Below, in pieces: positions 2,197-17,068 of a stretch of 24,158 nt of DNA. Every line of letters starts with the position of its first letter. Position 1 is the first letter of the stretch. The notes under the pieces were generated by a model. It was not told where the DNA came from and searched no databases. It saw only the letters and a list, made by a program, of their open reading frames with translations. Origin of the DNA: a virus; the IMG/VR virus record IMGVR_UViG_3300043772_001894, positions 1 through 24,158 of that record; one strand, given 5' to 3'. The position numbers were made by a program, and so were the translations under genes.

Positions 2197-3572
2197 CGGG
2201 AGAAATTTTTGACATCGTCAAAATGATCCCGCCCGAGTCCCATTCCAGGGAGCAGACGATCATCATGAACGCCCTGCGCACGGATGGGCTGCGCAATGTG
2301 TTTGTGGCCATGGGAACAAAATTTGGTAAGACCGTGGCCTCGGCTGTTGCGCTGTCAAGCCAATGTCTTGAACGCCCTGGCACCGTGTGGCGCTGGGTGG
2401 CGCCGATCTACCAGCAATCAAAAATCGGTCTCGAATACTGTCAAAAGATCATGCCGCCAGAGCCGGACGTCAAAGCCAACATGTCCCTCATGCACCTTTA
2501 TGCCCCGGACGTTGATTCACGGATTGAGTTTTGGCACGGGCAACACCCCATGTCCCTCGAAGGCGCAGGCGTCCACGGCTACGTGATCGACGAGGCGGCC
2601 AAGTGTCATGAGCAGGTTTACCTTTCCGCAAAAACAACCGTCACGATGACCAAGGGCACCATCATGTGTATCTCAACACCTCTCGGGAAAAATTGGTTTT
2701 ACCAGCGCGCCATGGAGGCAAAAGATCACATGGCCTGGGCCATTAAAACCGGACGACCACTGGAGCAAATTTTTCTCACCGCACCAACGGCGGTCAACCC
2801 TTACATCAGCCGCGACATCATCCGAAAAGCAAAACGCGAGATGCCGGCTCGCCTTTTTCGCCAGTATTACATGGCCGAGTTTTTAGACGAGGGCACCGTG
2901 TTTACCGGTATTGCTGAGGCCCTTTACGGAGACCCGCTTGAGTTTGAAACCGACACCGTTAAGTGGATCGCTGACTGTGCCAAGAAAAAAACCGTGGTCA
3001 TCGGTGCCGACTGGGCCAAGTCGGAAGACTACACCGTGTTTACGGCGCTTGATCTTGAAACGAAAGAGCTGTGCGGTTTTTACAGGTTTCATAAGGTGCC
3101 TTACACGGAGGCCGTGCGTCGCCTCATTTGGTTTTCCACGCGCTTTGAATCGGTTGTGGTCATTCGTCACGACAAGACTGGCGTTGGATCAGCCATCGAC
3201 GACCTCATGGCGCACACGGATTTGCCGCACGAGGGGGTGACTTGGACGAGCAGCATTAAAAACGAAATGGTGGCACGACTGATGACGTCGTTTGAGCAGC
3301 GTGAAATAAAAATTCCAAGGTGGTCTTCGCTGGTTACAGAGCTCGAGCAGTACGAGATCTCGGTGACGCCAACGGGTGCGATGAGCTACGGTGCGCCAAC
3401 GGGGAAACACGACGACTGTGTGTCATCTCTCCTCATGGCGAACGCTGCTCTACTAGAATACGGTGACAAGACTTTAGAAGTTCGCTACGTTAATGAAATT
3501 GGTGAAGTGGTGGCGCCCAAGGATGGGCTAGAAGCTTACTACCAAAGCCTCGTCGAGGATGACGAGGATTAG
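2193..3572 (+). CDS. terL: Terminase large subunit (packaging ATPase and nuclease)
   Basis: All hallmarks of a large terminase are visible in 459 residues. The N-terminal ATPase has a Walker A-like loop MGTKFGKT (40-47), a Walker B segment GYVIDEA (129-135) and coupling motif STP (161-163). A conserved linker follows (NPYIS near 202-206, FRQYYMAEF near 222-230). The C-terminal RNase H-like nuclease has three acidic positions: IGADWAKS (D273), VIRHDKTG (Asp) and GKHDDCVSS (Asp pair). It would dock on the portal, power DNA translocation into the prohead and cut the concatemer. The length is normal and the protein intact. The start overlaps the upstream stop (ATGA), implying coupling with the small subunit. 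The C-terminus ends in a short acidic tail. Confidence 0.97.
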   Translation: MTGEIFDIVKMIPPESHSREQTIIMNALRTDGLRNVFVAMGTKFGKTVASAVALSSQCLERPGTVWRWVAPIYQQSKIGLEYCQKIMPPEPDVKANMSLMHLYAPDVDSRIEFWHGQHPMSLEGAGVHGYVIDEAAKCHEQVYLSAKTTVTMTKGTIMCISTPLGKNWFYQRAMEAKDHMAWAIKTGRPLEQIFLTAPTAVNPYISRDIIRKAKREMPARLFRQYYMAEFLDEGTVFTGIAEALYGDPLEFETDTVKWIADCAKKKTVVIGADWAKSEDYTVFTALDLETKELCGFYRFHKVPYTEAVRRLIWFSTRFESVVVIRHDKTGVGSAIDDLMAHTDLPHEGVTWTSSIKNEMVARLMTSFEQREIKIPRWSSLVTELEQYEISVTPTGAMSYGAPTGKHDDCVSSLLMANAALLEYGDKTLEVRYVNEIGEVVAPKDGLEAYYQSLVEDDED

Positions 3573-3591
3573 ACGCTAGGATGGCGGCAAC

Positions 3592-7207: not shown

Positions 7208-7220
7208 TGCGGTGAAACAT

Positions 7221-7245
7221 CTTGGAGCATGACGCTCTAGGTTTT
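7221..7245 (+). promoter_or_regulatory. Leader hairpin upstream of the capsid gene (possible weak terminator)
   Basis: Bases 7221-7228 (CTTGGAGC) pair with 7234-7241 (GCTCTAGG), including two G-T pairs, around the loop ATGAC, and TTTT follows at 7242-7245. It may be a weak terminator or attenuator between protease and capsid genes, or a leader structure of the capsid mRNA. Its loop nearly matches two other leader hairpins (13892-13908 and 15724-15745). Confidence 0.5.
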
Positions 7246-7277
7246 GATTAACGACTTCACTTCATCCAGGAGGAAAC

Positions 7278-8678
7278 ATGGAAGTCACGAAGCAAGTAGA
7301 TGAGTTGCTCCAAGAGACTAAAGCTCTTGCTGAGCGCGTAGAAACCGCAGAGGGCCGCGTAAAGGAGCTCGAGGCTGAAAAGGCAAAGGCTTTTTCTGCT
7401 CCGGTTATTGGCGGACGCTCTGACAGCGTTGAAGGCCGCGCCATGGCAGCATTCGGTTGCAGCCACGCCAAGCAACTTTTGTCGGTTAACACGGCAGATG
7501 AAAAATTCCGCTACGTCCCAGAAGAACTAAAGTGTGCGGTTCGCAACCTGAAGGAAGCCGTAGACCTAGCTCGTTTCTCGGCACAGATCCTTTCCGGCAA
7601 CGTCGATGGTCGTGCTAAGGGCGGAGATGACTCCGAAAGCCTCGTCGCTGTTAAAAACATCTTTGACACAAATTATGCCAAAGAAGTTTTGATCCCGATG
7701 ACCAAGAGCTTTGGCTCGAGCGCTGGCACAGGCCTTGAGTGGATTCCGACAGCCATCAGCCAAAACTACATCGCTGAATATGAACTGCAAAGACTGGTCG
7801 AAGGAAACTTCCGCACCGTCTCCATGCCGACAAACCCATTTGTTTTGCCCGTACAAAAAGCCGTCACCAAGGCGCGCCTCGCGTCCGAAGGCTCCGCGGT
7901 AACCGATGCAAACTTCCAAACTGCCCAGCTTTCCATGACAGCTAAAAAGTTTGCCGAGTATTTCGTATTGCCAGAAGAACTAACCGAAGACTCAATCGTT
8001 GACATCATGGCGATGGCTCGTCAAGAAGTGATCTCCGCTCAGGCTCGCGCAATTGAAGCGGCTGTCATCAACGGCGCAACCGGCGCACATATCGACAGCG
8101 ACACGGCAGCTCTTGGTGCCACCGTAGCTGAAAAAGCATGGGACGGCCTTCGCAAGCTTGCTATTGCAAACTCTGCTAACGGCGGAACACTGGACTGCAA
8201 CACGATCAATGGTGGCGTCTTATCCGTCGCACACCTACGCAAGATGCGCGCACAGATGGGCAAGTTTGGCGTTAACCCTGCTGAACTCGTGCTCCTCGTC
8301 TCTCCATCCGGCTACAGCTCTTTGCTCGCTACTGGTGAAGTGTTGACCATGGAAAAGTATGGCCCCATGGCAACCATCAACACCGGAGCCCTGGGAACCA
8401 TCCTCGGCATGAAGATCGTCGTTAGCCAGTACATGCGCGATGACCTCAACGCAAGCGGTGTGTATGACGGCGCTGTGTCTTCCTACACAGGCCTTCTTTG
8501 CGTCAACAAGAGCCGCTTCTTCGTCGGTCAGCGTCGTCCGATCGTCGTTAAGGCACAGGCAGATCTTCCAAGCCAAGACCGCTTCTTGCTTGCAAGCTAT
8601 CAGCGCAAGTGCTTTGTCGGCCTTCCACAGTCGGCGGCTGAAAAGTCTGTCGTCTACGGCGTCAAGGCTGCCCTCTAA
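7278..8678 (+). CDS. Major capsid protein (HK97 fold)
   Basis: The 466-residue protein has the layout of an HK97-type capsid protein. An N-terminal coiled-coil delta-like segment (residues ~4-38) and a charged region to ~120 are probably removed by the upstream protease. The shell domain follows: IPMTKSFGSSAGTGLEWIPT at its N-arm, an E-loop/backbone-helix region around 165-215 (NFRTVSMPTNPFVLPV, ASEGSAVTD), the P-domain helices (VDIMAMARQEVISAQARAIEAAVING), and an A-domain end with GTILGMKIVVSQ and PIVVKAQADLPSQDRFLLASYQRKC split over two strands. It should form the icosahedral shell. A very strong AGGAGGA at 7268-7274 precedes ATG 7278, fitting high expression, and a terminator follows at 8706. 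Confidence 0.94.
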   Translation: MEVTKQVDELLQETKALAERVETAEGRVKELEAEKAKAFSAPVIGGRSDSVEGRAMAAFGCSHAKQLLSVNTADEKFRYVPEELKCAVRNLKEAVDLARFSAQILSGNVDGRAKGGDDSESLVAVKNIFDTNYAKEVLIPMTKSFGSSAGTGLEWIPTAISQNYIAEYELQRLVEGNFRTVSMPTNPFVLPVQKAVTKARLASEGSAVTDANFQTAQLSMTAKKFAEYFVLPEELTEDSIVDIMAMARQEVISAQARAIEAAVINGATGAHIDSDTAALGATVAEKAWDGLRKLAIANSANGGTLDCNTINGGVLSVAHLRKMRAQMGKFGVNPAELVLLVSPSGYSSLLATGEVLTMEKYGPMATINTGALGTILGMKIVVSQYMRDDLNASGVYDGAVSSYTGLLCVNKSRFFVGQRRPIVVKAQADLPSQDRFLLASYQRKCFVGLPQSAAEKSVVYGVKAAL

Positions 8679-8705
8679 GATTGGTGCTCACATACATGAA
8701 AATGG

Positions 8706-8737
8706 GGGGCGGGGTTTCGTTAGCCCCGCCTCTTTTC
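8706..8737 (+). terminator. Rho-independent terminator after the capsid gene
   Basis: GGGCGGGG-type arm at 8706-8714 pairs with CCCCGCC at 8724-8730 (7 G-C pairs, extendable), with a loop of about 9 bases, followed by TCTTTTC. It lies 27 bases after the capsid stop and only 17 bases before the next start, so genes downstream probably depend on readthrough. Confidence 0.85.
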
Positions 8738-8753
8738 ACTCCAGGGTTATGAC

Positions 8754-9200
8754 GTGACAACAAAAATTGCTCTCTACCAAACCCAAACCATCATGCCACT
8801 TGCCACGCGGGATGCCGGCGTGCATGAGGAGGGTGTGTATGCGGAGTGCGACACGATCATTATGACCGTGTTTGTTGCGGCGATTGATCCGGCAACGTCA
8901 CTGAAAATTGACATCAAGGAATCTATTGTCGGCGCTGACGAAGGCGAAGCCTACAGCCTTGGTGGAACCGGCGAGATCATCGAGGTTGGTTCAAAACGCT
9001 ACTCGATACGCGGGTTTCTCTGTCAGCCTGTTTTTAAAGTCACCGTCACCGGTGGCACCGTACGATATGGGATTGTGATTTCAGGAAAACAAAACATTCC
9101 AAGTGTGCCTAATAACACGGTCGACTTCTCGAAGATCTTTACCGACGTCGAAGGGCTCACCGTGCTTGTGGACGACAATGGAAACGTCATCTCGTCGTAA
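8754..9200 (+). CDS. Putative virion decoration protein, beta-rich
   Basis: GTG 8754 has AGGG (8743-8746) 7 bases before it. The 148-residue product looks almost all-beta: alternating hydrophobic stretches (TIIMTVFVAAID, SLKIDIKES, KRYSIRGFLCQPVFKVTV, TVRYGIVIS) separated by Gly/Asp turns. The C-terminal piece (NNTVDFSKIFTDVEGLTVLV, then DDNGNVISS) could be an extended tail. I do not recognise a family. Placed directly after the capsid terminator and before two fibre-like genes, a capsid decoration or fibre-base role is reasonable but inferred. The downstream gene begins 10 bases after its stop, so these are probably co-transcribed by readthrough from the capsid unit. Confidence 0.75.
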   Translation: MTTKIALYQTQTIMPLATRDAGVHEEGVYAECDTIIMTVFVAAIDPATSLKIDIKESIVGADEGEAYSLGGTGEIIEVGSKRYSIRGFLCQPVFKVTVTGGTVRYGIVISGKQNIPSVPNNTVDFSKIFTDVEGLTVLVDDNGNVISS

Positions 9201-9209
9201 GGAAGGATC

Positions 9210-9719
9210 ATGGCCAAGCACATTTATAGGGGTTCAGGAGCCCCAAACTTCGTTCCTGAAGACGTTGGACACCACTATGTCGACGTCTTAACAAAGGACG
9301 CCTACCTGAGCGTTGGCACAAACTCACCGGCAGACTGGGTGATTGCAGCGGGGTTTTCTGTTTCCAACGGCATCGTCATCAACACTATGGATGGCGACGA
9401 GACGACGCTTTCACCGAGTGTCGTTGCCGTAAAGTCTTACATTTTAAATCTCATCAACTCGGTTGTCGCAAACCAGATGGTGGTTGAATACAAAACATTA
9501 AACGATGATGAAATCGCAAATAGATCCATCACGTTAGAACACGCGCCGGCCAGCGAAATCGATGTAACCCTTGACCTCGTAGGCGGAGGAGCCCAGGTGC
9601 TAGGCGATGATTTCACCGTCACGGGTGATGTCATTTCTTGGGACGGCCTTCCACTTCAAGATATTTTATCCATCGGCGACAAACTGCGCGTTTCATATTC
9701 AAAAGCAAACACACTGTAA
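9210..9719 (+). CDS. Putative head-fibre or appendage protein
   Basis: The 169-residue protein opens with a YRGSGAPNFVPEDVGHHYVD segment followed by YLSVGTNSPADW. This Gly/Pro-rich plus aromatic pattern is seen in many phage fibre and appendage proteins (family recollection, not a search). Residues ~68-90 are a hydrophobic helix. Residues 93-165 form a beta module with GDDFTVTGDVISWDG and IGDKLRVSYS that matches, by eye, residues 1029-1104 of the next gene's giant fibre. AAGGAAGGATC before ATG 9210 gives a good ribosome site. It probably works together with the fibre it precedes, for example as an adaptor or a smaller homologous fibre; exact placement on the virion is not shown. Confidence 0.75.
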   Translation: MAKHIYRGSGAPNFVPEDVGHHYVDVLTKDAYLSVGTNSPADWVIAAGFSVSNGIVINTMDGDETTLSPSVVAVKSYILNLINSVVANQMVVEYKTLNDDEIANRSITLEHAPASEIDVTLDLVGGGAQVLGDDFTVTGDVISWDGLPLQDILSIGDKLRVSYSKANTL

Positions 9720-9733
9720 GGAGATGGTAAGCT

Positions 9734-12700
9734 ATGGCGTTAATTAAAGGCCGCTTTATCGAGGACTCGTCCGTCGATGGCGCAAAAGTAAAACTGAAAA
9801 ATCAACAACCACTTAAAGGAAAAAAATCAGACGGTTCCGACAAAGACATCCTCCAGATTTCGTCTGACGGAAAAATCCAGTTTTTAGACCTACCCGTTGT
9901 TAGCGCTGACCCTGTTTCTGCCGACGAAGTTGGCCGCAAGGGTTACGTTGACGCCCAGGCGCAAAGCGCAAAAGACTATGCCGACGGCAAAGTTGCGCAA
10001 GAGGCCGCAGACCGTGCCGCAGCCGACGCCGAAATCGATGCGCGTATTGACACGCTCGAAGCGGACGCCGTCACCAAGGCCTACGTCGACACAAAGGACG
10101 CCGAGGGTAAAGCCTACGCAGACCAAAAAATTGCTGACCTCGTAAACTCCGCACCGTCAACGCTTGACACGCTTAAAGAGCTTGCCGATGCCATTGCGGC
10201 AGGCGAGACCGCATCCCAAGGCCTGTTGACTCTGATCGGTCAAACAGACGCCAAAGTTGACGCCGAGATTTTAAATCGCCAAAGCGCAGACCAAGTCCTT
10301 GACGACAAGGTTGACCAAGAGATTGCAGACCGCCAAGCGGCTGACGCAGCTCTTGACCTTCGACTGGACGTCCTGGAAGCCGACCCCGTCACAAAGTCTT
10401 ATGTCGACCAAAAAGACGCAGACCTTGCGGCACGCGTCAGCGCCATGGAAGCCTACGACAAAGAAACCGTCTACGTTGACTCCGTTAACGGTGTCGACGA
10501 AGCTGGTCGTGGGACAATGCTACGTCCATTCAAAACCATTAACTTTGCCTACGGACAGGTCCAAAGCGCTGCGACTGACCTGACAAAGTGGGCATCCGAA
10601 AAACTGATCTTGAGCCTGGCCGCCGGTAACTACTCGGAAGAGGTAGTCATCGGATTTAAACGCGCTAGGGTCGCGGTCGTTGGTGACGGTGTATTTATCA
10701 GCGGCGGCTTGACCGTAAAAATGCTGAAGGAAGACACCCCGACCATTACCGCTGGCGGTCTACCGTCTCCATGGACTGGCGACAACGTCAGGGCCACGTT
10801 TGAAATGGTGGGCACTGGCGGCGGCATGGAAGGCGGCTACGTCTCCAAAAACATTATCGTCAATGGCCAAGTGAAGCTATTGTCCGAGTCTTGGGCAAAC
10901 GCATCGAGCTGGCAGTTTGGCGGCGCTCTGAGCCACTATGTCTTTATGTCCAACGTGCAGCTTCGTGCCGGCTTGATCTCCGTTCACGACTCGAAGTCCT
11001 TTACGGGAACGGTCGGTCCGAACATCACGGCAGAGATTGACTCGTCTTCGATCGAGGGCGGCTACTTTGGTGCACAGCCTTTGACGGCTGGCGCTAATAT
11101 GCTGACCGCGACAAACCACCAGTTCAACATCAAAGCCCACAACTCTCAGTTGAAATCTACGATTGGTCCGCGAGCAGTCATCCTCGAGATCGACGGCTGT
11201 CGCGTGATGAACATTGACCGCACGATGGGCGGTGCCGTGGCTGGTTCGCAAGACGCTGCCGGTGTTACCGCGCAAGACTCGTCGAGCTACTCTGGGATAG
11301 TTAACTCGCCATTCGCTGGAACGGTTTACAAGCTTGGTCGCACGTCCACGGCTGGAAACGTCACCTTTAGAATGGATGCCAATTCATACGCATCCTTAAA
11401 AGGCAAGACCATCGACGCCGGCGCTTCTACTTTGCTTTATAACTTAATTGATAAAGCATCAGCGGTTGCTGTCCAATTGTCGGCAACAAACTACGTCGCC
11501 TCTGAGGCAACGGTTGAATCTCATTTAAGTGGTATCCACAGCGCTTTAGCAACCAAGGCAAATGCGTCGGACGTCACCGCGTCCATCAATGCCGAGCAAA
11601 CAGCGCGTCAAGCCGCGGACTCAGCAGAGGCCTCAGCACGTCAAGCGGCCGATACGGCACTTGATGCACGACTGACCGTTTTGGAAGCTGATCCAACGAC
11701 CAAGACCTACGTGGACGGCAAGTTTAACGACGCAAAAACCTACACGGATGCAGGAGTTGCAGAAGCAAAAGGATACGCTGACCAAAAGGTTGCGGCCCTC
11801 GTTAATGGCGCCCCTGAAATGCTCGACACACTTAAGGAGCTGGCGGACGCGTTGCAAGCGCAAAGCGGAGACCTATCGTCTAGCATCTTAAGCCAAGTTG
11901 GAGCCGTTGATCAGCGTCTAACCAACGAAATTGCAGACCGTGTTTCCGGTGACCAGGCTCTACGCACCGACCTGAATGCAGAAATATCCGCTCGCGAATC
12001 AGCAGATCTTGAGTTCTTAAAACTTGACGGAAGTCGACCCATGGGCGCACAGCTCGACATGGGTGGTCACGACATCAAAAACGCCAGCGGCGTCATGATT
12101 GGCTACAATGCTGCACCAGCTGAAAAGCTGCACATTGTTGATGGAAATCAATTGATCGAAGGCAGCGGAGAGACGTCCATCGTTATGAAGCGTGCCGGAC
12201 TTGTTGGCACCGCGCTTGATCCTATCTTCAAACTTGGTCGCATCGTCGCGGGCGGCATTCTAAAGCCTGTTTATCGCATTCTCTACCAAGACGCAGAACA
12301 AGGTGAAAGATCGGTATTTGAAGTTGAGTCAACGGGTACGGTTGCATCGGTATCTGACGGAACACGTCGAAGTCATTTTGAAGCCTACGTCAACAACGGT
12401 GACACTGAGCCAGTATTTAGATTGAACAGCCACCCAGACATGGGCCTTGAGCTTGGCGCTGGTGGAACGACTCCCGTTGATGTCGCACTCCGTAGAAACG
12501 GCGCACAGTCAGCAAAACTTGAAATTGGCGGTGACGCCAAGACCATTTGGTATGCCGACAATGTCGTCATTCAAGGTGGTGCAGGACTTGTAATGAGCGG
12601 TCAACGTGTCAAGGACGTTGGAGCACCTTCTCAAGATACAGATGCAGCTACCAAGGCTTATGTTGACGGATTGGCGACAAGCGAAGCGGCTGCTCGTCAG

Positions 12701-13765
12701 TCTGCTGATGCTGGCTTGCAGACAGCGATTGACGCCGAAGCAGCACGCGCTCTTGCCGCTGAAACAGCGCTCGACGCTCGCATCGACACGATCGAGGCAC
12801 ACCCGATCTACGGCAAAAAAGAGCTTAAGACCCTAGCGTCTGGAGATCTTTCTTACGTTGATTGTGCGGTTGAAGCGTTGGCCGACACGATGATCGTCTC
12901 TGTTTCCGGCGTGATGCATTATGAAGGCGACAGCTACTCTGTGAGTGTTGTCGACGGAAAAACACGCATCACATGGGTTGGAGATCTCGCATCCGGTGGA
13001 GCTGCTGCTTTAACCGCTGGCGACCGGGTTCTCTTGCAATACCTTACGCACGCGCCGTCTAGTGGCGGCGGCGGCGGTGGTGAGGTTCCAGTAGCACCAG
13101 TTGTTCAGAGTGTAACGGTATTGCCACAGTCTGAATTGTACTCGGCTGTGCAAGTTGCATGGACAGGTACAGCAACCAATTACAATATTTTAAAATATGG
13201 TGGACCTGAATTTGGTTGGGAACTTTGCGCTGGTGGGCCTTTGTCTTCTTCTTCTCCGGCAACAATCACTGATCTTCCAAGACCACAATCTTGGGAGCCT
13301 GATGAAAATGCTAACTTCAGAATGATTTTAGACAACAACGTAGAAGGTGTTCCTCACTTGTCACAAGCTTTTGATTTTAGCTTACCTAAGCGAGCAAGTG
13401 GTGGTGATCCAGAAGCAGAAATTCCGGCGTCTGGACAAGTTATTTCAGGTCTGAACGTTGAGAACAACGGGATAACATTCACAAATGTTGAATTTATTAA
13501 GTTGTTTTTCCCGGGAACTACAGATGAAATCACTCAATCGTCAAAAGTAAGAATTTCTTACACAAGCCCTGTACCTCTTGAAAACATGTATCTTGAATTC
13601 TTTATTAATGGCCAATGGACGGAAACATACAATCAAGGGCGTCCAGACGGTCTAACATCTAGCCCGATGACAGCAAATATCACAAGGGGATACAGCTATC
13701 GTCTTAAGCTTAAGAATTCGTCCGGTGTCGAAAGTGGCGTTTTAGAATTTAATGTTGGCTACTAA
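9734..13765 (+). CDS. Giant phage fibre protein (beta-helix, coiled-coil and collar modules)
   Basis: In 1343 residues these parts follow each other: an N-terminal tail-fibre-like anchor (1-65); a coiled-coil/collar module (66-240) with VTKAYVD, APSTLDTLKELADAI and VTKSYVD; a beta-helix-like region (243-~570) opened by VYVDSVNGVDE and RPFKTINFAY, a pectin-lyase-like start; a second module (~590-760) with TTKTYVD and APEMLDTLKELADAL; a classic fibre motif GSRPMGAQLDMGGHDIKNA (766-784); DAATKAYVDG (970-979); a beta module (1029-1104); a six-glycine linker (1111-1116); and a C-terminal beta-sandwich-like region. It should trimerise and carry host or surface binding at its C-terminus. The gene lies inside the head module, so it may be a head fibre rather than a tail fibre. 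AGGAGATGG precedes ATG 9734. Confidence 0.88.
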   Translation: MALIKGRFIEDSSVDGAKVKLKNQQPLKGKKSDGSDKDILQISSDGKIQFLDLPVVSADPVSADEVGRKGYVDAQAQSAKDYADGKVAQEAADRAAADAEIDARIDTLEADAVTKAYVDTKDAEGKAYADQKIADLVNSAPSTLDTLKELADAIAAGETASQGLLTLIGQTDAKVDAEILNRQSADQVLDDKVDQEIADRQAADAALDLRLDVLEADPVTKSYVDQKDADLAARVSAMEAYDKETVYVDSVNGVDEAGRGTMLRPFKTINFAYGQVQSAATDLTKWASEKLILSLAAGNYSEEVVIGFKRARVAVVGDGVFISGGLTVKMLKEDTPTITAGGLPSPWTGDNVRATFEMVGTGGGMEGGYVSKNIIVNGQVKLLSESWANASSWQFGGALSHYVFMSNVQLRAGLISVHDSKSFTGTVGPNITAEIDSSSIEGGYFGAQPLTAGANMLTATNHQFNIKAHNSQLKSTIGPRAVILEIDGCRVMNIDRTMGGAVAGSQDAAGVTAQDSSSYSGIVNSPFAGTVYKLGRTSTAGNVTFRMDANSYASLKGKTIDAGASTLLYNLIDKASAVAVQLSATNYVASEATVESHLSGIHSALATKANASDVTASINAEQTARQAADSAEASARQAADTALDARLTVLEADPTTKTYVDGKFNDAKTYTDAGVAEAKGYADQKVAALVNGAPEMLDTLKELADALQAQSGDLSSSILSQVGAVDQRLTNEIADRVSGDQALRTDLNAEISARESADLEFLKLDGSRPMGAQLDMGGHDIKNASGVMIGYNAAPAEKLHIVDGNQLIEGSGETSIVMKRAGLVGTALDPIFKLGRIVAGGILKPVYRILYQDAEQGERSVFEVESTGTVASVSDGTRRSHFEAYVNNGDTEPVFRLNSHPDMGLELGAGGTTPVDVALRRNGAQSAKLEIGGDAKTIWYADNVVIQGGAGLVMSGQRVKDVGAPSQDTDAATKAYVDGLATSEAAARQSADAGLQTAIDAEAARALAAETALDARIDTIEAHPIYGKKELKTLASGDLSYVDCAVEALADTMIVSVSGVMHYEGDSYSVSVVDGKTRITWVGDLASGGAAALTAGDRVLLQYLTHAPSSGGGGGGEVPVAPVVQSVTVLPQSELYSAVQVAWTGTATNYNILKYGGPEFGWELCAGGPLSSSSPATITDLPRPQSWEPDENANFRMILDNNVEGVPHLSQAFDFSLPKRASGGDPEAEIPASGQVISGLNVENNGITFTNVEFIKLFFPGTTDEITQSSKVRISYTSPVPLENMYLEFFINGQWTETYNQGRPDGLTSSPMTANITRGYSYRLKLKNSSGVESGVLEFNVGY
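10067..10195 (+). repeat. Coiled-coil/collar module, copy 1
   Basis: Encodes residues 112-154 of the fibre, including VTKAYVD, KAYADQKIADLVN and APSTLDTLKELADAI. It is matched by copy 2 at 11693-11854. The protein match is strong but the DNA has diverged at many third positions, so the duplication looks old. Confidence 0.75.
11693..11854 (+). repeat. Coiled-coil/collar module, copy 2
   Basis: Encodes residues 654-707 of the fibre, including TTKTYVD, KGYADQKVAALVN and APEMLDTLKELADAL. Compared with copy 1 it has about 11 extra residues between YVD and YADQK, which would lengthen the coiled coil. Confidence 0.75.
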
Positions 13766-13787
13766 CATTAAAGACGGTTTCATCATG

Positions 13788-13808
13788 GCCCCCGAAAGGG
13801 GGCTTTTC
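13788..13808 (+). terminator. Rho-independent terminator after the fibre gene
   Basis: GCCCCC (13788-13793) and GGGGGC (13798-13803) enclose the stable tetraloop GAAA, followed by TTTT. It lies 22 bases after the fibre stop. The rest of the 167-base gap to the next gene holds no open frame I trust; it contains the leader of the 73-codon gene. Confidence 0.9.
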
Positions 13809-13891
13809 CATTTACCCACCAAACGAAAAGACCTTGAAATCAGCCTCCCCGTGGTGAAACATACCTCATAGAGAATCTCCAATTCACTTGG

Positions 13892-13908
13892 TCGCTCAGG
13901 ACGAGCGA
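13892..13908 (+). promoter_or_regulatory. Leader hairpin with AGGAC loop
   Basis: TCGCTC (13892-13897) pairs perfectly with GAGCGA (13903-13908) around the loop AGGAC. It ends 8 bases before the ribosome site AGGGAGGA of the 73-codon gene at 13933. The 9-base string TCAGGACGA recurs in the leader hairpin of the tail-tube gene. Confidence 0.6.
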
Positions 13909-13932
13909 ACTGTTTCAGGGAGGAAACACCAA

Positions 13933-14154
13933 ATGAAAGTTAAGTTTGCAAAGCCTACATTTCCGGGCCAAGACCACGTCATCGTTCAGGTTGAGCACGG
14001 CGCCGAAAACGACCAGCTTTACACCAAGCACGTTAAAGTAGGTGAAATCATCACGCTCGACGACGACCTGGGCTATAAGGTCCTAAGCCAATACCGCGGC
14101 CTTTTTGAGATGGTTCAAGAAGACAAGTCGGTCAAAGAACTTTCAAAAAAATAA
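13933..14154 (+). CDS. Small hypothetical protein at the head-neck junction
   Basis: ATG 13933 is chosen because AGGGAGGA (13917-13924) sits 8 bases before it; a longer frame from 13888 lacks a ribosome site and would run through the leader hairpin. The 73-residue product has an N-terminal beta part (MKVKFAKPTF, HVIVQVEHG), a VGEIITLDDDLGYKVLSQY segment and a charged C-terminal tail. The pattern of a short strand protein with a VGEII.LDD turn resembles small proteins often found between capsid and connector genes, but I cannot name a family. It follows a terminator and has its own leader and a strong ribosome site, suggesting substantial expression. Confidence 0.75.
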   Translation: MKVKFAKPTFPGQDHVIVQVEHGAENDQLYTKHVKVGEIITLDDDLGYKVLSQYRGLFEMVQEDKSVKELSKK

Positions 14155-14167
14155 AAGGTGGTAGGCC

Positions 14168-14767
14168 GTGGCCTTAAACGCTAATGCCTTGACGACGGTT
14201 GCCGTTGCCAAGGATCACTTGGGTATACCGGCGGCTGACGCAACGCAGGATGGGCGCATTGAGCGCTTTATCAACGTGGCCTCAGACCGTGTTTCCAATT
14301 ACACGGAGCGCCAACTGGTGGCAGCCGACACGGTGGACATCCTCCACGGCGGCATGACCAACATGCTGATGCTGCGCGAGTGGCCTTTAAACGCGGTTTC
14401 CGAGATGGCCATTGATAGTGACGGCATTTTTGGACCTGAGACGGTGGTTGACCCGTCTGATTACCGGATCATCGACGAGGGGACATTGCTCTATGACGGC
14501 GTCCTCCCTTACGGGTACGGCAACATCAAAGTAACCTATAACGCCGGCTATCAAACAATACCGTCTGACATTGAGATGGCCTGTTTGTTGTTTGTCGAGT
14601 GGCTTTACCGCTTCCGCAACACGGGCAGCATTGGTCGCTCGGGCATGTCCAAAGGTGACGAGTCGACCACCATTTTGCAAGATATTCCCCCGATCATTAA
14701 GTCACTGCTAGACCCATTTCGGCGCACGGAGTTTTCGGTCCCAGACCGTCCGGCAAGGAACGTGTAA
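14168..14767 (+). CDS. Head-tail connector (adaptor) protein, HK97 gp6-like
   Basis: GTG 14168 follows AAAGGTGG. The 199-residue protein has the usual features of the head-tail connector (gp6/gp15-like) family: an N-terminal helical part (VAVAKDHLGIP, DGRIERFINVASDRVSNYTERQL), a strand segment around a YRIIDEGTLLY turn, then GYGNIKVTYNAGYQTIPSDIE, typical of this family just before the last long helix, MACLLFVEWLYRF. It should form a ring that docks under the portal and prolongs the DNA channel. Its place, directly before head-closure and tail-terminator genes, fits. The C-terminal helix DIPPIIKSLLDPFRR is also typical. Confidence 0.85.
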   Translation: MALNANALTTVAVAKDHLGIPAADATQDGRIERFINVASDRVSNYTERQLVAADTVDILHGGMTNMLMLREWPLNAVSEMAIDSDGIFGPETVVDPSDYRIIDEGTLLYDGVLPYGYGNIKVTYNAGYQTIPSDIEMACLLFVEWLYRFRNTGSIGRSGMSKGDESTTILQDIPPIIKSLLDPFRRTEFSVPDRPARNV

Positions 14768-14769
14768 CC

Positions 14770-15246
14770 ATGGCCGGCCCCCGCTCACTCGAAGACATCA
14801 AGCGCATTCAAAAGCGTTTAGGCGACATGTGGCGCGGGTGGAAGCCGGGCAGCCCCGAGACAAAAAAAGCGTTTTACTTAATTGGTGAGCGTCTGAAAAC
14901 CGAGGCCAAACTATTGGCGCGAGCAAACCGGATTGTCAACACGGGCCGCCTGATTAATACCATCTCCTATGTCCCAAATGACACGGGAACCCCAGGCATC
15001 ATTTTCGGCGTTTTTGGCACGCCCTACGCAAGGTTTCACGAGTACGGCGCCGCATGGACCGAGGCCAATCGCCGGGCCATGTTTTATTTCATGCGCAAAA
15101 CCGGTCAAAAACCAAGGCCGTCCAAAGGTGTGGTCCGCGGTGGGCGCATCACGCCAAGGCCTTTTATGTGGCCAACGGTGACAAAAAACCGGGACTACAT
15201 CATCGACCAAATTAGGTTGATTGGCATGGGGGGCGACAAAAAATGA
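14770..15246 (+). CDS. Head-closure or tail-completion protein (HK97 gp10 / Mu gpG-like)
   Basis: The 158-residue protein has a helical N-terminus (LEDIKRIQKRLGDM), a second helix (KKAFYLIGERLKTEAKLLA), then the family pattern NTGRLINTISY, FGVFGTPYARFHEYGA and RITPRPFMWPTV, which is characteristic of HK97 gp10-like and Mu virion morphogenesis proteins. These act in the neck, linking the connector to the tail. AAGGAA at 14755-14760 serves ATG 14770. The end overlaps the next start by 4 bases (ATGA at 15243-15246), suggesting coupled translation with the tail terminator. Confidence 0.82.
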   Translation: MAGPRSLEDIKRIQKRLGDMWRGWKPGSPETKKAFYLIGERLKTEAKLLARANRIVNTGRLINTISYVPNDTGTPGIIFGVFGTPYARFHEYGAAWTEANRRAMFYFMRKTGQKPRPSKGVVRGGRITPRPFMWPTVTKNRDYIIDQIRLIGMGGDKK

Positions 15247-15680
15247 CAAGTAAAAAACGAGCCATCTGTGACGCCATCTTATCGAAGCTCGATGACGTGC
15301 CGGGCCTTAAGCTAAAAGCTTTTGACAGGGTGCGGTTGTACTCATCGGACTTTCAAGACCACGAGCTGCCGGCGGTTCAGATCATTGACGTCGACGAGCA
15401 GGTGAGCCACGAGATGTCACGGGCCAAAAAGTCTTGGCGCATGGGCCTTGAAATCATCATGAAGCCAAACGAGTTTGGGGACGTCTCACAGAAAGACCTT
15501 TGGGATATGCAGTACGCGGTCGAGCGGGCTCTTTTTAAAGACCCCAATTTTTCCATCCCAGGGGTTATTCATCTACAATACCTGTCTTCCAGCACGGACC
15601 TTCATCTCCTTGAGCCTTACTACTATTGCCGGCTTGAGCTTATGTGCATGTATTATGAACCCTTGGTGGCCGACACCTAA
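15243..15680 (+). CDS. Putative tail terminator protein
   Basis: The 145-residue protein begins with a helix (KRAICDAILSKLDDVP), continues with beta strands (AFDRVRLYSSDFQDHELPAV, SWRMGLEIIMKP) and a helix (QKDLWDMQYAVERALF), and ends in strands with YYYCRLELMCMYY. This alpha/beta plan, the length and the slot between the gp10-like gene and the tube gene match tail terminators (lambda gpU-like), which cap the finished tube and join it to the head. Sequence conservation in this group is low, so the call leans on gene order. A 94-base gap follows with no gene; it contains the tube leader. Confidence 0.72.
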   Translation: MTSKKRAICDAILSKLDDVPGLKLKAFDRVRLYSSDFQDHELPAVQIIDVDEQVSHEMSRAKKSWRMGLEIIMKPNEFGDVSQKDLWDMQYAVERALFKDPNFSIPGVIHLQYLSSSTDLHLLEPYYYCRLELMCMYYEPLVADT

Positions 15681-15723
15681 AGTGGCAAAGTTCGCAGAGG
15701 GTTGACGGTGCCAGATAAACTAT

Positions 15724-15750
15724 CGTGAGTCAGGACGACATCACGCTTTT
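15724..15750 (+). promoter_or_regulatory. Leader hairpin with AGGAC loop before the tail-tube gene
   Basis: CGTGAGTC (15724-15731) pairs with GAC-TCACG (15737-15739 and 15741-15745), with A15740 bulged, around the loop AGGAC; CTTTT follows. It ends 13 bases before the AGGAGG ribosome site (15759-15764) of the gene at 15775. It may be a terminator after the terminator-protein gene, a leader element, or both. Confidence 0.6.
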
Positions 15751-15774
15751 ATAACGCCAGGAGGGCGATTTAAA

Positions 15775-17001
15775 ATGGCTAAGAACTATGCGGCGCTTTA
15801 CGCGTCAACCAATGATTCCTATGCAATTGAACAGGCAATCTATATCAAACCAGAGGCCTCACGCGGTCAGTTAATCGCACCCGCTGGATCTGATTTTCTT
15901 TATACGCTGTCAGGCGGCGGTCTTTCCCACAGCCAACCGTTTGAGCTGTCACCGCACCGCTCTGGTCGCCACGCCAACAACATCATCAAGAAAAAGAAAG
16001 AGTGCTCATGGAGCCTCTCCACGTACTTCAACATCGATGAAACGTTGGCATCTCCTGATGCCGCCGAGATCGACGCACCGGTCCGCGTTCTTTATAAGTC
16101 CCTTCTCGGTTATGAAGACGCCACCGCAGGGTTGGTCTACGATGCCAGCATCGCACCAAACCTGACGTTCTCCATGTTTGAGATTGGAGACAAATGGGCC
16201 AAGCAAGGCCGCGGCTGTTTTGTGGAAAGCACTTCGATGAGCTTCCCCGGTGACGGCGAGGCCAAGTGCGAGTGGTCTGGTAACGCCGCAGAGGCCATCA
16301 TGGTAGGCCTCGGTAAATCAACCACGGCAAGCACCGGAACCAACGTTGAACTTCAGGCAGGCGAAGGAAAAAACTTCCCCGTCGGAAGCCTCGTCATGAT
16401 TATCAAAGCTGACGGCACCACTAGATCTGCCGATACTGCCACCGGTGCCCGCGTGGTCACGGCAGTTTCGGGCGACGTGGTCACATTGTCTGGCGCGGCT
16501 TTGGCGGATGCCGATGGATCGGCTAACCCGGTTTACCTTTGCTACTACGAGCCGGCAACAAAGTCAGGCATCGATGCACCTGTCACCGGTCTAAAGGGAT
16601 CAGTCACAATCCCATCGATTGGAAATCAAGTTTTCCGCATGGCCAAGATCGACATCAAAAACAATCACGAGCTCTTCAATTACGGCTTTGGCACGGACTC
16701 CTTGTCTGGTCCATTGTTTGTCCCTGGGTCTCGCGTCTCCGTTGACGTGAGCCTTGAGATGAACATGAGTGCCAAAGTTTTGAAGTTCTTCAACAGCGTT
16801 CAGGAATTTACTGCACAAGCCTGCACGATCGTCTTAGGCGATGCGGCCAAGCGTCACCTCGAGGTTGTGTTGCCAAAGATTCTTTTCAAAGTTCCAGCGA
16901 TCTCCGTGCCAGACACCGGATCGATTCCCGTGACGTTTGAAGGAACGGCGTTGCAAACTGCTCTTGACGCTGCCGACGAGGTCCAAGTAAAGTTTATCTA
17001 G
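15775..17001 (+). CDS. Major tail tube protein
   Basis: The 408-residue protein has the layout of a siphophage tube protein: N-terminal strands (QAIYIKPEASRGQL, FLYTLSGGGLSHSQPF), a central core with CSWSLSTYFNID, MSFPGDGEAKCEWSGNA (~155-171), then an insertion of about 85 residues (~180-262) rich in Gly, Thr and Val, and a C-terminal core half (GLKGSVTIPSIGNQVF, RVSVDVSLEMN, HLEVVLPKILFKVPAISVPD, IPVTFEGTAL), which is typical of the family. It polymerises as stacked hexamers around the tape measure. AGGAGG before ATG 15775 and a terminator after the stop fit a high-copy virion protein expressed as its own unit. Confidence 0.88.
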   Translation: MAKNYAALYASTNDSYAIEQAIYIKPEASRGQLIAPAGSDFLYTLSGGGLSHSQPFELSPHRSGRHANNIIKKKKECSWSLSTYFNIDETLASPDAAEIDAPVRVLYKSLLGYEDATAGLVYDASIAPNLTFSMFEIGDKWAKQGRGCFVESTSMSFPGDGEAKCEWSGNAAEAIMVGLGKSTTASTGTNVELQAGEGKNFPVGSLVMIIKADGTTRSADTATGARVVTAVSGDVVTLSGAALADADGSANPVYLCYYEPATKSGIDAPVTGLKGSVTIPSIGNQVFRMAKIDIKNNHELFNYGFGTDSLSGPLFVPGSRVSVDVSLEMNMSAKVLKFFNSVQEFTAQACTIVLGDAAKRHLEVVLPKILFKVPAISVPDTGSIPVTFEGTALQTALDAADEVQVKFI

Positions 17002-17030: not shown

Positions 17031-17068
17031 ATAAGCCCAGGCCCTCAACGCTTGGGCTTATTGGTTTT
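17031..17068 (+). terminator. Rho-independent terminator after the tail-tube gene
   Basis: ATAAGCCCA (17031-17039) pairs perfectly with TGGGCTTAT (17053-17061), with a 13-base loop, followed by TGGTTTTC. It lies 30 bases after the tube stop and 30 bases before the ribosome site of the chaperone gene, so chaperone and tape-measure genes are probably reached by readthrough. Confidence 0.8.

Follow-up and report, generated by a model that had tools for sequence, protein, structure and literature searches.

The leader hairpins of this phage DNA are quite probably translational operators of the CsrA/RsmA family, predicted to be bound and read by a dimer of the host's own CsrA. Judged by sequence, the element belongs to a known kind, as its loop and closing pairs match known CsrA/RsmE sites. 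The leaders of a 73-codon gene and of the probable tail-tube gene each present an A(N)GGAX hairpin loop together with a second GGA that overlaps the ribosome site, as CsrA/RsmA operators do. The spacing of the two sites, 20 and 27 nt in these two leaders and 19–30 nt in the other paired sites, found in relatives, falls in the range over which CsrA bridges (10–63 nt, best >18; PMC7652899).

Results

A siphovirus fragment from a probably temperate group

The window, by which we mean the whole stretch of 24,158 nucleotides analysed, is a 24-kb siphovirus fragment encoding terminase, portal, protease, major capsid, tail fibre, head-tail adaptor, neck, probable tail tube and tape measure. No named phage matched it at the DNA level, and its terminase, portal and capsid are only ~22–31% identical to proteins of named phages, with matches scattered over many hosts. 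An integrase in two long-contig relatives, of 50 kb and 46 kb, makes a temperate lifestyle probable for the group. The tail protein of family phrog_290 is probably the tail tube, given its location ahead of the tape-measure gene; a structure search from sequence with the tube family gave no useful match. Used as a search query, the 73-aa protein recovered only relatives already in our set. Single-sequence scans supplied six capsid and four tube relatives, and alignment scans 22 and 16. The two paired leaders and their genes are as follows.

13892–13908, + strand: upstream CsrA-type hairpin of the 73-codon gene, TCGCTC[AGGAC]GAGCGA, 6 bp
13911–13928, + strand: ribosome-site hairpin, TGTTTC[AGGGAG]GAAACA, with a six-base A-N-GGA-X loop, closing C-G then U-A
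13933–14154, + strand: 73-codon gene, in the morphogenesis cluster, directly upstream of the head-tail adaptor
15724–15745, + strand: upstream CsrA-type hairpin of the tube gene, CGTGAGTC[AGGAC]GAC(A)TCACG, 3+5 bp, one A bulged on the 3' side
15755–15767, + strand: ribosome-site hairpin, CGCC[AGGAG]GGCG
15775–17001, + strand: tail protein gene (phrog_290), probably the tail tube

Paired GGA-loop sites in two leaders

The preliminary description had placed hairpins ahead of the capsid, 73-codon and tube genes, with loops closed by C-G, and all three were recovered. The 9-base string TCAGGACGA is indeed common to the 73-codon and tube hairpins, the capsid loop reads ATGAC, and the distances from hairpin to ribosome-site core, AGGAGG or GGGAGG, agree (26 nt for the capsid, ~9–10 nt for the 73-codon gene and ~12–13 nt for the tube). 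The idea of one element shared by three leaders is borne out by two of them, those of the 73-codon and tube genes, where the loop is AGGAC; it fails for the capsid gene, whose AUGAC loop lacks GGA, so that the three hairpins are not equivalent.

The chance of obtaining a C[A(N)GGAX]G hairpin, estimated by dinucleotide shuffling of the 80 nt upstream, is P = 0.003 for the 73-codon leader and P = 0.007 for the tube leader. The ribosome sites of both genes themselves lie inside C-G-closed loops of the A(N)GGAX type, and two such hairpins appeared in 0 of 20,000 shuffles of the 73-codon leader and in 1 of 20,000 of the tube leader; across the single leaders tested, two sites in one leader occurred in at most 3 of 20,000.

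The 487 kb of window and relatives contain 75 GGA-loop hairpins on the coding strand and 22 on the other, versus 36.6 in shuffles, an excess that partly consists of ribosome sites. Paired sites upstream of a start number seven on the coding strand, none on the other strand and 0.15 on average in shuffles; as four of the seven belong to one homologous leader, they amount to about four independent cases. When loop trimers were counted without bias across all relatives, GGA did not stand out, because the count is dominated by terminators and by hairpins within genes, and the element is missing from most distant relatives. Restricted to leader hairpins, the same count over all 32 contigs gave a GGA excess of only ~1.4-fold, since many relatives of 45–59% identity have short leaders that lack it.

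Conservation of the loop on changing stems

Among relatives, the loop of the 73-codon leader reads AGGAC (window and L012), AAGGATT (L010) or ATGGATC (L015), so that its length changes while A(N)GGA is kept in all, and the stems carry two compensatory changes. In their tube leaders, L015 and L016 retain TC[AGGAC]GA above differing lower stems, and L016 also keeps the one-base 3' bulge of the window at the same position; covariation was judged by eye here because MAFFT misaligned the lower stems. A fixed loop on changing stems is the pattern of an RNA element read by a protein, as first proposed, and it extends to the relatives, which keep the loop. In an alignment of 12 hairpins, 92% of stem cells are paired and 15 double changes are seen versus 5.5 in shuffles, figures inflated by the four rows picked by a stem scan. 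The upstream loops occur in the contexts UC[AGGAC]GA and GC[AGGAC/A/U]GC; they read GGAC, GGAU or GGAA, and none reads GGAG.

These observations bear on the possibility that no dedicated protein is involved and that the loops offer AGGA for 30S standby, the ribosome-site hairpin merely holding a loop open. AGGA does pair with the 3' end of 16S rRNA, and ribosome sites by their nature enrich the coding strand in GGA. Yet AAGGATT and ATGGATC keep A(N)GGA without extending the pairing to 16S rRNA, which ATGGATC weakens. Standby has no need of a C-G closure either, yet C-G closes 12 of 12 pentaloops, followed by U-A or G-C (A-U in one hairpin), in a set that was partly selected on C-G. We therefore regard standby as an improbable explanation, and CsrA recognition as the better account of both loop and closing pairs.

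The capsid leader

7221–7241, + strand: capsid-leader hairpin, CTTGGAGC-ATGAC-GCTCTAGG, 8 bp, without GGA
7268–7273, + strand: capsid ribosome site AGGAGG, which contains GGA and has no strong local stem
7278–8678, + strand: major capsid protein gene (PF05065)

With AUGAC as its loop, the capsid hairpin of the window departs from A(N)GGAX and is not classed as a CsrA site; since GGA is missing, we take it to be a degenerate or lost site of the CsrA type. At the same aligned position, L012, L013 and L028 have GC[AGGAA]GC or GC[AGGAC]GC versus GC[ATGAC]GC in the window, and L028 (47% identical) has a second capsid-leader hairpin, GTTCC[AAGGAG]GGAAC, over the ribosome site. The hairpin is nevertheless near-invariant across four phages, the window and three close relatives, always with AUGAC in place of AGGAC. 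This conservation fits no CsrA rule, and we cannot explain it.

The portal leader and other carriers of the element

3515–3528, + strand: hairpin GCCC[AAGGAT]GGGC at the end of terL, 64 nt upstream of the portal start
3548–3567, + strand: portal-leader hairpin, CCTCGTC[GAGGAT]GACGAGG
3574–3586, + strand: hairpin over the ribosome site of the portal gene, CGCU[AGGAU]GGCG, with a U-G closing pair (C-G in L028)

The portal leader (3515–3586) thus holds three consecutive GGA-loop hairpins, two of them within the 3' end of the terminase gene. Its counterparts include CCTCGTC[ATGGAT]GATGAGG in L013 and GCC[AGGAT]GGC over the ribosome site in L028. Paired sites elsewhere comprise GGTC[AAGGAC]GACC and GATC[AAGGAG]GATC ahead of a capsid-region gene in L039, and TAGC[AGGAT]GCTG and GCCCGC[AGGGAG]GCGGGC ahead of the adaptor gene in L026. 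A further hairpin, GGGCGAC[AGGAT]GTTGCTT, precedes a gene starting MAVNLTVSNTT in L015 (11291–11313) and L016 (10299–10321).

The same hairpin type also occurs outside the morphogenesis cluster, in L067 (G005:11276-11327) and L068 (G003:15540-15562), where the gene behind it encodes a small putative DNA-binding protein of 73 aa (G005) or 107 aa (G003). The preliminary description had proposed that the element coordinates high-copy virion proteins; with the portal leader and, in two relatives, the gene for a small putative DNA-binding protein among its carriers, that restriction does not hold. Virion-only specificity was dropped because blind matches preceded this gene.

A phage-built model recovers csrB and csrC

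We built a covariance model from 12 phage hairpins only, two of them from the window. Over both strands of the window, the three leaders supply its four best matches: the capsid hairpin, the upstream hairpins of the 73-codon and tube genes, and the hairpin at the tube ribosome site. Of these, the capsid and ribosome-site hairpins were absent from the training set. No hairpin within a gene of the window scores as high. In the contig parts outside training, matches fall mostly in gene leaders, including one in G003 and one in G005, where GAC[AGGAC]GTC is accompanied by GATC[AGGAG]GATC over the ribosome site; some fall within genes, as does one site in G013. Within the window, the two outcomes named beforehand as refuting the proposal did not occur, since relatives keep the loop and the genes hold no equally good hairpin. 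Rfam models gave no match to the element at gathering score, and one chance match at a lax threshold.

Applied to 45 kb of E. coli K-12 that include the 369-nt csrB, the model placed its best match, and three of its best four, inside csrB. In another 45 kb of E. coli, csrC ranked second, behind a match in the spacer after rrfA. CsrB repeats are CAGGA(U/A/C)G within hairpin loops (PMC7652899). RsmE binds RsmZ stem-loops whose A(N)GGAX loops, 5–8 nt long, are closed by C-G and then by U-A, or by G-C in SL3, and the loops of SL3 and SL4 have five bases, without the N; most isolated RsmZ GGA sites, five-base loops included, have only micromolar affinity for RsmE (PMC4005645).

A search for csrA (PF02599) found it in none of 27 related records, most of them fragments and one of them the 50-kb record with integrase, nor in the window record. 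Since csrA was not found in the phage records, host CsrA is the likely reader of the hairpins. Patterns derived from the alignments found no capsid or tube relatives in genome_contigs, and the plasmid collection held no relatives.

The reader could instead be an RNA-binding protein encoded by the phage, coat-operator-like or novel, with a CsrA-like preference for loops. Such a protein would suit an element seen on phage genes alone, all of them in this one group, and might account for the strongly kept AUGAC variant of the capsid leader that CsrA leaves unexplained. It would, however, have to reproduce the rules of CsrA in detail (the optional N of A(N)GGAX, the C-G closure and the second copy at the ribosome site), and a model built from its sites would have to recover csrB and csrC, as ours does; we consider it unlikely. 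A coat operator of the MS2 type, which has an ANYA four-base loop and a bulged A, was ruled out because the five-base AGGAC loop does not fit.

Leaders possibly near transcript starts

Three strong terminator-like hairpins, after the capsid gene (8704–8734), the tail-fibre gene (13787–13806) and the tube gene (17031–17061), divide the morphogenesis cluster into units.

13787–13806, + strand: terminator-like hairpin downstream of the tail-fibre gene

The hairpin after the tail-fibre gene implies a promoter of its own for the 73-codon gene. More generally, terminator-like hairpins between units suggest that the leaders with hairpins lie close to the 5' ends of their own transcripts. The string GGTGAAACAT occurs at 7211–7220 and 13855–13864, a short way upstream of the capsid and 73-codon leader hairpins. 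Upstream of the tube hairpin, GATAAACTATCG and, farther upstream, CAAAGTTCG (15685–15725) are kept in L015 and L016 as a possible promoter.

Although hairpins that follow terminators and stand close to the starts of what are probably separate transcripts could be plain stabilising structures or RNA-processing sites (for RNase III, or for a RegB-like nuclease cutting GGAG), this is very unlikely, as stability alone would leave the loop free to change, the stems are too short for RNase III and the upstream loops read GGAC, GGAU or GGAA and not the GGAG of RegB. A processing enzyme had been suggested as the reader, and nothing points that way.

Discussion

We propose that a host-encoded CsrA dimer would dock one face on the upstream hairpin, at its A(N)GGAX loop, and, by analogy with glgC, the other on the GGA of the ribosome site. 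Bridged in this way, the ribosome site would be covered and the 30S subunit shut out, and because of this cover translation would be held down, for the 73-codon and tail-tube genes here and for capsid, portal and adaptor genes in relatives. Release would follow a fall in free CsrA, for which host sponge RNAs or titration by abundant late phage mRNA are natural candidates. We infer three parts of this scheme: the binding of CsrA, its presence in the host, and repression rather than mRNA stabilisation.

These leaders suggest that host CsrA may control the timing of virion-protein synthesis. CsrA sites on cellular mRNAs and on sponge RNAs are already known; in the open-access literature we found no report of CsrA operators in the leaders of phage structural genes. 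If the proposal is correct, the timing of virion production is tied to host metabolism, and a sequence rule is available for finding such operators in other phages. More tentatively, a group of temperate siphophages could be using dedicated two-site operators to hand control of its morphogenesis genes to the carbon-storage regulator of the host, and virion output would then track host nutrition. On this broader picture, which we hold possible and would not yet favour, late mRNAs may also soak up CsrA and reprogramme the host, and the AUGAC variant of the capsid leader would be a site of altered specificity or one that has escaped.

A link between phages and the Csr system has precedents. CsrA is known to influence prophages (PMC12371270), and PMC7366521 cites Serratia work on such an effect as well. 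Phages that carry csrA genes (30 of 2517; PMC7366521) share this link to the Csr system; they differ from the present group, in which csrA was not found and sites on the phage mRNAs would recruit the protein of the host. The CAGGA(U/A/C)G hairpin loops of E. coli CsrB and CsrC resemble the phage hairpins closely enough for both RNAs to be matched by the phage-built model, but they belong to noncoding sponges, whereas the phage hairpins are candidate operators. Pseudomonas RsmZ offers the same five-base AGGAX loop in SL3 and SL4, closed by C-G and then by G-C or U-A; RsmZ gathers many sites in a sponge RNA, whereas the phage genes have one to three hairpins each, in the leaders of their mRNAs. 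In the E. coli glgC leader, one hairpin site and one ribosome-site copy are bridged by a CsrA dimer (PMC7652899). The phage leaders share with it the GGA hairpin loop just upstream, the GGA on the ribosome site and a spacing within the bridging range; they differ in that the genes behind them are those of phage morphogenesis, and in that for the 73-codon and tube genes the GGA of the ribosome site also lies within a hairpin.
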